The position numbers and the translations under genes were made by a program. Positions 49,525 through 52,594 of a stretch of 64,000 nucleotides of DNA are shown here, piece after piece. The stretch covers positions 1,082,501 through 1,146,500 of the forward strand of contig OY282361.1 of the NCBI GenBank assembly GCA_958295645.1, in the 5' to 3' direction. Each line of letters opens with the position of its first letter. Position 1 is the stretch's first letter. Source of the stretch: Longimicrobiales bacterium. Its GTDB lineage: Bacteria > Gemmatimonadota > Gemmatimonadetes > Longimicrobiales > Gaopeijiaceae. The notes below the pieces were generated by a model. It made no database searches and was not told the DNA's origin. It worked only from the letters and a program-made list of their open reading frames with translations.

Positions 49525-50016
49525 TCAGTCGCGGCCCCTCCGCGCTCGAAAGAATGTGCGCAACAACGTTGCTGATTCGTCGGCGAGCACGCCGCCCTGC
49601 ACGCGGGCGCGGTGGTTGAGGCGGTCGTCGCGGACCAAGTTGCCCAGGCTGCCCGCCATTCCGGCTTTTGGATCGGCGGCTCCGAAGACCAAGCGCTCCA
49701 CCCGAGCGAGCACGACGGCGCCTGCGCACTGGGCGCAGGGCTCCAGCGTCGTGTAGAGCGTGCAACCGTCGAGGCGCCAGTCGCCCCGTCGCCGCGCCGC
49801 CAGCCGGATGGCCACGAGTTCGGCGTGGGCCGTGGGGTCGGACCATGCCACGGTGCGGTTGTGAGACTCGGCCAGCAACTCGTCGCCCAGCACGACTACG
49901 GCGCCCACCGGCACTTCGCCGCGGACTTCGCCCGCCCGTGCCGTTTCAAGTGCTCGGGCCATCCACACTTCGTCTCGGGACCCCGGCTCGGTGGCGTCCA
50001 GCCCTGCACGGCTCAC
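49525..50016 (-). CDS. tadA: tRNA adenosine(34) deaminase
   Basis: About 163 residues from GTG 50016; GTG 49968 and ATG 49962 are alternatives that keep the conserved WMARALETA start. The zinc and catalytic motifs are PTAHAELVAI (H-A-E near residue 74) and EPCAQCAGAVV (P-C-x2-C near 104). It deaminates A34 to inosine in tRNA-Arg(ACG). The next gene upstream is the LexA-like repressor, 19 bases away in the same direction, so they may share a transcript. Confidence 0.93.
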   Translation of the reverse strand: MSRAGLDATEPGSRDEVWMARALETARAGEVRGEVPVGAVVVLGDELLAESHNRTVAWSDPTAHAELVAIRLAARRRGDWRLDGCTLYTTLEPCAQCAGAVVLARVERLVFGAADPKAGMAGSLGNLVRDDRLNHRARVQGGVLADESATLLRTFFRARRGRD

Positions 50017-50035
50017 GTCGTCGAGCGCAGGGACG

Positions 50036-50731
50036 CTAATGCGCGGCCGCCGCGCCTCCGGCCGGAATCGGTCCGATGCGCCGGACCAGCGCCGACACGC
50101 GTCCGACGAGCACGAGGGAGGCGGGCTCCTCGGCCAAGCCGGAGGAGTCGCGCCCGGCAACGCGGTGCAACGACACTCGGGCGCCGCGCCTTTCCAGGCG
50201 ATAGTAGTCCGGCACGCCGCCGACGCTGGCAACGACGAGCTGACCGTCGGCCAGCTTCTCCCTCACCACCGGCTCGACGATCAACTGATCCCCTTCTTCG
50301 ATTCCCAGGGCGCCCAAATGCGCGTTGGCGCGCACCACGAAGCATCCCGCTCCCTCGGCAAGCCGGCGATCGAGCGTCATGCGGATCGAAGCCGCCTTCC
50401 GTCCGGATCCCGTGGCCTCGGCCAAGTTGCCGAAGCAGGGCACGGAGGCCGTCTCGGCGTGCAGGTCGACGCCGAGTATGCGAATCCCCCGCGACCGGGA
50501 GGGGTCCCTTTCCAGGAAGCCCTTGTCGGCCAGCGCCTGAAGGTGTTCCGAGACCGTCTTGGTGCTCTTGATGCCGAACTCGCGCCCGATTTCGCGAATG
50601 GAGGGCTGGTAGGTGTTGGCCCGCAAGTAGCGGACCATGTAGTCGAGGATGTTCCGCTCGGCGTCCGTCAGAACCGACGTGACCTTGGGGCCGACAGCCA
50701 CGGGCGGGGACGCGCTTGGTCCGTTTCTCAT
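50036..50731 (-). CDS. LexA-like repressor lacking the catalytic Ser-Lys dyad
   Basis: 231 residues from ATG 50731 (weak ribosome site). Residues about 17-85 are a standard LexA winged helix: LTDAERNILDYMVRYL, PSIREIGREFGIKSTKTVSEHL, ALADKGFLERD. The C-terminal half aligns with the S24 peptidase fold (ASVPCFGNLAEATGS; CFVVRANAHLGALGIEEGDQL; GQLVVASVGGVPDYYRLE), but where LexA has S-M in G-D-S-M this protein has A-H-L, one residue is missing, and the Lys region has Tyr-Tyr-Arg with no Lys. The Ala-Gly cleavage bond is also not evident. I infer a repressor that cannot self-cleave, so either it is not the SOS switch or it is relieved in another way. It is followed by tadA and preceded by its own promoter with an inverted repeat. 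Confidence 0.9.
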   Translation of the reverse strand: MRNGPSASPPVAVGPKVTSVLTDAERNILDYMVRYLRANTYQPSIREIGREFGIKSTKTVSEHLQALADKGFLERDPSRSRGIRILGVDLHAETASVPCFGNLAEATGSGRKAASIRMTLDRRLAEGAGCFVVRANAHLGALGIEEGDQLIVEPVVREKLADGQLVVASVGGVPDYYRLERRGARVSLHRVAGRDSSGLAEEPASLVLVGRVSALVRRIGPIPAGGAAAAH

Positions 50732-50804: not shown

Positions 50805-50833
50805 AGGATACGCATTCGCCCGGCGATGCGCAA
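50805..50833 (-). promoter_or_regulatory. Promoter of the LexA-like gene with embedded inverted repeat
   Basis: On the minus strand TTGCGC (50833-50828), 17 bases, then TATCCT (50810-50805). Inside it, TGCGCAT (50832-50826) and ATGCGTA (50815-50809) form an inverted repeat with a 10-base spacer, six of seven positions matching. The repeat covers the -35 and the start of the -10, the usual place for autorepression. That the LexA-like protein binds it is inference. Confidence 0.5.
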
Positions 50834-50920: not shown

Positions 50921-52594
50921 CTACTCGGGCGGCGCCGAGAGTTGCGCGCCCGCCCTGATCGCCGAGATCGCGTACTCGATTCGCTCCAGGGAGAACCTCC
51001 GCCCGACGATCATCAAGACGTCGAAGATCCCCGGAGTCGCGCCCGTTCCCGTCAACGCGAGGCGCAGGGGCTGGAACACCCTCCCCGCCGCGACGCCCAA
51101 GTCCTCCGCGAGCGCCCGCAAGGACGCCTCCAGCGCGGCGGCCTCCCAGTCCGTGTCGGCCAAGGCGCCGTGCACCGCCCGCAGGAGCGCCATGGCCTGC
51201 TCCGTGTCCCGCCCCCACGCCTTGCGCGCCGCCTTCGCGTCGAAGGCCGCGACGGGGCCGACGTAAGGGCGGGCGAGCGCCGCCATCTCCCGAAAGGAGC
51301 TGCTCCTGGGGGCGAGGAGGTGCGCCAGCCGGCTCAACGGCGCCGAACCCGTGCCCGGGCCCAGAACCTGCGATTCCGGCGTCGGGGATCCTCTGGGGGG
51401 CAGTCCCGAATCCGTCGTCCAGCCCGTCGGGGCGCCGGTTGCCGGACGGCCGCCGGCCGTCGCGTTCTGTGGGCCGGCCGTTGCGTCTTGCGGGCCGGCC
51501 GTCGCGTCTTGCGGGCTGGCCGTCGCGTCTTGCGGGCTGGCCGTCGCCGCTTCTTGGCGCGCTGCGGGCCGGCGCTCGCGATCGAATTCCCGATCGAGGG
51601 CCGTCAGCAGTTCCGCCGCGAGTTCCCGGGGCGGCATGCGGGCCATGTACTGCCGGTTGAGCCAGCGGAGCTTGGCGGCGTCGAACACGGCGCCCTTCTT
51701 GAGCACGCGATCCAGCGAAAAGCGGTCGACGAGGTCTTCGGCCGCCAGCGTCTCTTCGTCGGTGCCCGGCGACCAGCCGAGCAACGCCAGGAAGTTGAGG
51801 AGCGCGGCGGGCAGGATCCCCTCGCGACGGTACGCCTGCATCGATTCGGCGCCGTGCCGCTTGGAGAGGCGGCTGCCGTCGGCGCCCAGGATCAGCGGCA
51901 GGTGTCCGAACTGCGGGACCGGCTCGTGCGCCGCGCGGTACAAGAGGATCTGCTTGGGCGTGTTGGAGATGTGGTCGCTGCCGCGCACCACGTGCGTGAC
52001 GCCCATCGCGTCGTCGTCGGAAACCACGGCCAAGTTGTAGGTCGGCGTTCCGTCGCTCCGCAGGATCACGAAGTCCTCGATCTCTTCGTTGTCGAAGCGC
52101 GTCGGGCCGTGGACCAAGTCGTCCCAGTCCGTCTCGCCGTCCGGGACGCGGAAACGGACGGCGAAGGGACGGCCCGCCGCAGCCAGGCGCTCGCGTTCGG
52201 CGGCCGGCCACCGGGCAGCCAGCATTCTCGGCAGGCGGGTGACCGCGCCCGTGCCGGCGCTCACGGCGGCCTCCCGCGCCTGGGCGTACTCGGCGGGCGG
52301 CGTGAAGTCGCGGTACGCGCGCCCCTCGTCCAAGAGCCCCTGCGCGAAGTCGCGGTGGCGTTCCACGGCCGCCGCCTGGAAGACGGGCTCCTCGTCCCAA
52401 TCCAGACCGAGCCACCTCAGGCCGTCCAGGATGGCGTCCACATGCTCGGGAAGGCTTCTCTCCCGGTCGGTGTCCTCAATCCGGAGCAGGAACGCGCCGC
52501 CGTGGCGCCGTGCCAGCAGCCAGTTGAAGAGCGCGGTTCGGGCGCCGCCGACATGCAGGGCGCCGGTCGGCGACGGCGCGAAGCGAACCCTCAC
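50921..52594 (-). CDS. gltX: Glutamyl-tRNA synthetase
   Basis: 557 residues from GTG 52594, which overlaps the TGA of the RND pump gene (GTGA). It opens MRVRFAPSPTGALHVGGART, with the HIGH equivalent at 14-17, and has the KMSKS equivalent in GSRLSKRHGAES near residue 242. The C-terminal anticodon-binding part continues to the end (TATPGIFDVL-like segment and FSLERIEYAISAI). Residues about 347-410 are an unusual insert made of heptapeptide repeats and Gly/Pro/Thr-rich sequence. No adjacent gatCAB. Its position as the last gene of an efflux operon is odd for an essential synthetase; an internal promoter is possible. Confidence 0.96.
   Translation of the reverse strand: MRVRFAPSPTGALHVGGARTALFNWLLARRHGGAFLLRIEDTDRERSLPEHVDAILDGLRWLGLDWDEEPVFQAAAVERHRDFAQGLLDEGRAYRDFTPPAEYAQAREAAVSAGTGAVTRLPRMLAARWPAAERERLAAAGRPFAVRFRVPDGETDWDDLVHGPTRFDNEEIEDFVILRSDGTPTYNLAVVSDDDAMGVTHVVRGSDHISNTPKQILLYRAAHEPVPQFGHLPLILGADGSRLSKRHGAESMQAYRREGILPAALLNFLALLGWSPGTDEETLAAEDLVDRFSLDRVLKKGAVFDAAKLRWLNRQYMARMPPRELAAELLTALDREFDRERRPAARQEAATASPQDATASPQDATAGPQDATAGPQNATAGGRPATGAPTGWTTDSGLPPRGSPTPESQVLGPGTGSAPLSRLAHLLAPRSSSFREMAALARPYVGPVAAFDAKAARKAWGRDTEQAMALLRAVHGALADTDWEAAALEASLRALAEDLGVAAGRVFQPLRLALTGTGATPGIFDVLMIVGRRFSLERIEYAISAIRAGAQLSAPPE
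51451..51555. repeat. 21-bp tandem repeat inside gltX
   Basis: Five head-to-tail copies of a 21-base unit of the form GGCCGGCCGTCGCGTCTTGCG. The copies at 51472, 51493 and 51514 are nearly identical, the first is diverged, and the last keeps only its first half. They encode the heptapeptide Q-D-A-T-A-S/G-P on the gltX strand. As the period is a multiple of three, changes in copy number keep the frame. Confidence 0.9.

Follow-up and report, generated by a model that had tools for sequence, protein, structure and literature searches.

The open reading frame at 50036-50731 on the minus strand encodes the second LexA of Gemmatimonadota, here named LexA2, which is vertically inherited and syntenic (gltX-lexA2-tadA). 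The best explanation of the data, to which we assign a probability of roughly 0.78, is that this second LexA has lost self-cleavage and acts as a dimeric DNA-binding repressor whose targets are not SOS genes. We infer the non-SOS role because the DNA-binding domain has been kept and SOS boxes are absent before the gene. Such a repressor would bind an operator of its own, distinct from the SOS box; activated RecA would be unable to switch it off, and its derepression would follow a non-proteolytic or an externally proteolytic route. The gene lies in the window, that is, the whole stretch of 64,000 nucleotides analysed here, which corresponds to positions 1082501-1146500 of a genome of 2,885,659 bases (2.89 Mb) in one contig encoding two LexA-type proteins. 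The relevant features, in window coordinates except for the last, are as follows.

50036..50731, minus strand: lexA2, encoding a LexA paralogue of 231 aa without the Ser-Lys dyad and without the Ala-Gly bond (ORF, PF01726, alignment)
50486..50674, minus strand: LexA-type winged-helix DNA-binding domain, residues 20-82 (PF01726; 1lea match)
50546..50566, minus strand: recognition helix S56-T-K-T-V-S-E62 (alignment)
50435..50437, minus strand: Cys99, aligned with E. coli Leu78 (alignment and conservation)
50414..50419, minus strand: Glu105-Ala106, at the place of the LexA scissile Ala84-Gly85 (alignment)
50318..50320, minus strand: His138, at the place of the nucleophile Ser119 (alignment)
50201..50203, minus strand: Tyr177, at the place of the catalytic Lys156 (alignment)
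50039..50041, minus strand: His231, the C-terminal residue (conservation in family f1)
50805..50833, minus strand: putative sigma-70-like promoter TTGCGC-N17-TATCCT upstream of lexA2 (read from the sequence)
49525..50022, minus strand: tadA-like tRNA adenosine deaminase, downstream neighbour of lexA2 (synteny; product named from sequence)
50921..52594, minus strand: gltX-like glutamyl-tRNA synthetase, upstream neighbour of lexA2 (synteny; product named from sequence)
G000:C1:673176-673835, same genome: canonical LexA, with AAG, GESM and TVKRL all present

Domain organisation and cleavage residues of LexA2

The first-pass annotation had recognised a LexA winged helix in the DNA-binding half of the protein, and this assignment was borne out by a PF01726 match of 72.4 bits (E 2.6e-20) against a cut-off of 23.7; in addition, the NMR structure of the LexA DNA-binding domain, 1lea, matches the winged helix of LexA2 with a Z of 11.5. 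The C-terminal half matches PF00717 (Peptidase S24) with 16.5 bits, under the gathering cut-off of 23.3, and the whole protein scores 99.5 bits with TIGR00498, the lexA equivalog, under the curated cut-off of 110.95, whereas intact orthologues reach 162-185 bits. The same annotation had noted the absence of the nucleophile serine together with a deletion of one residue, a Tyr-Tyr-Arg sequence without lysine in the strand of the catalytic Lys, and the lack of a clear Ala-Gly bond. All three details were recovered in an alignment anchored on E. coli LexA and relatives. Specifically, His138 aligns with Ser119 next to a one-residue gap opposite Met118, Tyr177 aligns with Lys156 inside Y176-Y177-R178, and Glu105-Ala106 occupies the position of Ala84-Gly85, where neither a scissile Ala-Gly nor a Cys-Gly bond is found.

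Lysine is present at the catalytic Lys column in none of the 80 relatives fetched from named genomes, and a sequencing accident is therefore excluded as the cause of the dyad loss. Serine occurs at the nucleophile column in only two of these relatives (L212 and L249), both without the lysine; the serine of L212 sits in a RESL motif, and the sequence of L249 matches family f2. The possibility that another serine and lysine occupy the active site was also followed up. Conservation across relatives reveals no conserved Ser or Lys in the C-terminal domain of LexA2, as, apart from Ser96 (85%) on the border between the domains, all the conserved ones belong to the DNA-binding domain, and therefore no substitute dyad is visible. 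Some LexA proteins do carry Cys-Gly in place of Ala-Gly (PMC3789691), a precedent for cleavage with other residues, but that LexA2 still cleaves itself in such a way is scarcely credible, since no nucleophile-base pair, Ser-Lys or other, is conserved in its C-terminal domain, and since D/E/R mostly occupy the old Ser position and Y/H/F the old Lys position. In other words, with dyad and scissile bond both gone, the sequence comparison strongly supports the prediction, already made in the first reading, that LexA2 is unable to self-cleave, RecA-stimulated cleavage included.

The canonical LexA, the SOS box and the lexA2 promoter

Two situations had initially been envisaged for the window's genome: either LexA2 is its only LexA and the SOS response is relieved by other means, or a second LexA exists and LexA2 is a constitutive or ligand-controlled paralogue. 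The whole-genome search for a second lexA refuted the former, as it found the canonical copy, which reads ...LLGTVAAGEP...RVSGESMID...ATVKRLY... and has every catalytic feature in place. The latter holds in part: LexA2 is indeed a paralogue beside a second LexA, and it may be either constitutive or gated by a ligand, a thiol, a partner protein or proteolysis. The two proteins have the same domain order and 32% identity across their full length; the canonical one differs in its intact AAG, GESM and TVKRL and in a direct-repeat box of its own.

This direct repeat, TTCGG-N6-TTCGG, precedes canonical lexA in every one of 19 relatives, usually in two copies. A wider form, TTCG-N7-TTCGG, accompanies recA in 21 of 24 genomes, the window's own included (TTCGTGTTATATTCGG), and occurs there both in genomes that carry lexA2 and in genomes that do not. 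Most of the sampled members of the window's family (f1) also have it upstream of imuB or close by; the imuB-region match of the window's genome falls within the gene. Upstream of the lexA2 paralogue genes the wider box is absent (0 of 86), and control of LexA2 by the SOS response was accordingly rejected. Because the box is present at the canonical lexA gene itself and at recA, and at none of the 86 paralogue genes, the canonical LexA, and not LexA2, most likely controls the damage response (SOS). The lexA/recA box, TTCG(G)-N6/7-TTCGG (L001, G000:C1:672087-675272; L053-L070; L102), which lies in the promoters of these two genes, is a direct repeat and not a palindrome, with a layout similar to that of the alphaproteobacterial SOS box, GTTC-N7-GTTC. 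A published description of a direct-repeat LexA box in Gemmatimonadota was not found. Annotators of Gemmatimonadota genomes should be aware that, with two such proteins, the name 'LexA' may fall on the wrong one.

A different way of connecting LexA2 to the damage response would be that of a non-inducible partner or competitor of the canonical LexA, which, by forming heterodimers or occupying SOS boxes, would set a floor or a ceiling on the response. The LexA fold and the dimerisation domain are common to both proteins. Moreover, at the five DNA-contact positions, taken from those listed for E. coli LexA (PMC3091678), LexA2 has S, K, T, S and E and the canonical protein S, A, T, H and E, with equal residues at three of the five (S, T and E at E. 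coli 39, 42 and 45). However, positions 41 and 44 differ (K and S in LexA2, A and H in the canonical protein), the SOS boxes at recA look alike in genomes with and without LexA2, and the C-terminal domain of LexA2 is evolving away from the canonical one, which together make this alternative quite unlikely.

Regarding the regulation of lexA2 itself, most f1 members have CTTGACA...TTAGGAT upstream of the gene, a strong, constitutive-looking promoter, and the f1 upstream regions have this promoter only, with no common palindrome that could serve as operator. A palindrome with LexA-like geometry, GTACG-N4-CGTAC, lies in or adjoining the lexA2 promoter in family f5 and in one f3 genome. It was first noticed in one set of sequences; in a held-out test on 17 other upstream regions, four had it with at most one mismatch against 0.11 expected, and none of 300 shuffles reached three. 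GTACG-N4-CGTAC is likely to be the autoregulatory site of the self-cleaving forms of LexA2, and its position before lexA2 in f5 supports a predicted autoregulation there; in f1 no such palindrome precedes lexA2. Genome-wide, its counts are near control, with no exact match in the window's genome and most matches inside genes, and two good intergenic-like matches precede unrelated regulators (Crp/FNR-like and MarR-like); no LexA2 regulon was therefore derived from it. In the window's genome, three identical TTCGGATCATGTTCGG sites (L073, L084 and L086) lie far apart and probably belong to a repeated element. That no target gene or operator has been identified for LexA2 in the window's family counts against the reading of LexA2 as a non-SOS repressor.

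Distribution and repeated loss of the catalytic features

An orthologue of lexA2 (E < 1e-29) occurs in 47 of 58 relatives; it is kept in 28 of 34 sampled f1 genomes, the window's own counted, and in 19 of 24 genomes of the sister families f2 and f3. In the order, each of the 47 loci has tadA directly 3′ of lexA2 and in the same orientation, and 39 have gltX 5′ of it, the remainder including contig ends. A scan of the phylum found lexA2 beside gltX also in the sister-order family f5 (30 of 30 loci examined) and no clear orthologue in f4, f7 and f9. The named relatives all belong to Gemmatimonadota, many of them labelled Longimicrobiales, bar one contig labelled Gammaproteobacteria. A viral or prophage origin was rejected, given the housekeeping synteny and the absence of any relative in the viral collection, searched with single-sequence patterns. 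About 6 of the 34 f1 genomes are without lexA2, one of them only 60% complete; the genomes are mostly metagenome-assembled, and single-genome absences may be assembly gaps. Since some f1 genomes do without the gene, lexA2 is dispensable on an evolutionary time scale.

A few genomes depart from this general picture. The complete genomes G073 and G120 (genus g63, f5) have the canonical LexA only, and lexA2 was probably lost there. One f2 genome has, in addition to a degenerate copy, an intact one (L071, G046:C143:1-1700) that closely resembles the copies of genus g57 of f5 and lies at a contig edge, owing either to assembly contamination or to horizontal transfer. Another locus (L072, G047:C35:62000-63300) encodes a third protein of LexA type, whose LexA DNA-binding domain is fused to a short, unrelated C-terminus, about 14 kb from a second recA on the same contig (G047:C35:76097-77059); the two are possibly part of a mobile element carrying its own SOS pair.

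The state of the catalytic features varies among families. In f3, Ala-Gly, Ser and Lys are all present in 11 of 11 orthologues, whereas in f1 the dyad is gone in 37 of 37, with mostly E, D, R or A at the Ser position and mostly Y, H or F at the Lys position. Family f2 is a mosaic, in which some members keep the Ser and some the Lys. Family f5 ranges from intact to fully degenerate, with the Ser-Lys dyad and the scissile bond both still present in many members. In particular, in the f5 genus g79, the dyad is complete in G225 with Ala-Ala at the bond, G137 has kept Ser with Arg for Lys and no bond, and G097 and G153 have Ala at the Ser position, Arg at the Lys position and no bond; in genus g68, also of f5, G146 is intact, G080 has Ala-Thr at the bond, and G149 has Thr and Arg in place of the dyad. 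At least seven changes in the cleavage traits are needed on a tree inferred with the trait columns left out, with exact loss counts hinging on weakly supported forks; within f5 alone, grouping all losers in one clade is rejected (AU p 6e-44). Since both the outgroup, canonical LexA, and f3 are intact, we interpret these changes as losses. Judged from these predicted competences, the ability of the lexA2 orthologue to self-cleave has been lost repeatedly, and in two families the loss is partial and stepwise. A divergent lexA2 branch of f5 (L144-L149), beside gltX and without catalytic residues, has the recognition helix IASTKSV in place of IKSTKTV, and its DNA target has probably changed too.

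Constraint, fold and candidate routes of derepression

Repeated loss of catalytic residues and absence from some genomes are also what would be expected of a duplicate decaying under relaxed constraint. This is a very improbable account of lexA2, in view of its retention in most of the sampled family genomes, of an almost invariant DNA-binding domain, whose recognition helix KSTKTVSE is nearly unchanged in f1, f2, f3 and f5, and of the purifying selection acting on the C-terminal domain. Specifically, NG86 dN/dS is 0.05-0.37 for the C-terminal domain and, once divergence is measurable, mostly under 0.11 for the DNA-binding half, values taken from close f1 pairs only, as the all-pairs comparison was saturated and hence unused. 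The domain has, according to the model, still the S24 fold: an AlphaFold2 prediction of LexA2 (mean pLDDT 79) matches Thermotoga LexA in Foldseek with E 1e-12, and its residues 91-222 match the C-terminal domains of LexA and lambda CI with a Z of about 12. Moreover, two new residues have become fixed across f1, Cys99, where the former cleavage region begins, and His231, each 98% conserved.

These features offer candidates for the derepression of a LexA2 that represses genes outside the SOS regulon. Gating by a thiol, a metal or a ligand could involve Cys99, His231 and the refilled cleft, that is, the old active site, which is now filled by acidic, basic or aromatic residues and may itself contribute to derepression, as may the flexible tail with its near-invariant terminal histidine. 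Relief could otherwise come from regulated proteolysis through the tail, or from a partner protein. A stronger form of the first idea, which we hold as a tentative possibility, is that the C-terminal domain has been rebuilt in f1 as a sensor, either a thiol or metal switch made of Cys99 and His231 or a ligand pocket in the old cleft. If true, a repressor of the DNA-damage response would thereby have come under chemical gating. That self-cleavage has instead been replaced by regulated proteolysis, with a Clp-type protease or an adaptor reading the conserved C-terminal tail, appears unlikely: HdiR does require Clp following its self-cleavage (PMC8565304), and residues 224-231 are disordered in the model (pLDDT below 50) yet end in a histidine found in 98% of relatives, but the tail matches no known degron.

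Known systems illustrate several of these properties separately. Synechocystis sp. PCC 6803 has a single LexA in its genome, whereas the window's genome has two. The Synechocystis protein (sll1626) is non-cleavable, with Ser replaced by Asp and a Gly-Gly bond (PMC3091678, PMC7567884); it works outside the SOS response, of which it is probably no longer a regulator, and is presumed to be tuned otherwise, possibly by phosphorylation (PMC7567884, PMC3091678). It is the closest precedent, as both proteins have lost the Ser and the Ala-Gly bond and kept the DNA-binding domain; LexA2 differs in being without the Lys as well, in coexisting with a canonical LexA and in having intact orthologues in sister families. 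With regard to phage 186 CI, its switch is relieved by an SOS-induced antirepressor. Its C-terminal domain (2fjr, 2fkd) has the S24 fold, serves for oligomerisation and matches LexA2 with a Z of about 10, whereas the DNA-binding domains differ. The LexA2 of Leptospira interrogans is likewise the product of a second lexA; both dyad residues are retained in it, its bond is Cys-Gly, UV depletes it, and its gene sits within a prophage-like region (PMC3789691), while that of Gemmatimonadota is chromosomal, syntenic and without Ser, Lys or Cys-Gly. IrvR of Streptococcus mutans is a LexA-like protein that has escaped RecA control and still autocleaves, by a RecA-independent route (PMC7101444), unlike what is predicted for LexA2. 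Finally, the SOS repressors of Bacteroidetes retain the dyad (PMC8565304).

In text searches of the open-access literature, no description of LexA in the phylum Gemmatimonadota was found. Single non-cleavable LexA proteins were known already, but here one orthologous gene occurs at every stage of loss, namely intact, with the cleavage site lost, with Lys replaced by Arg, with Ser replaced by Ala or Asp, and with all of these features gone. Sometimes a single genus (g79, g68) contains several of these stages. The lexA2 genes of Gemmatimonadota would thus form a natural series in which to follow how a self-destructing repressor becomes a switch of another kind, and which signal takes the place of RecA.
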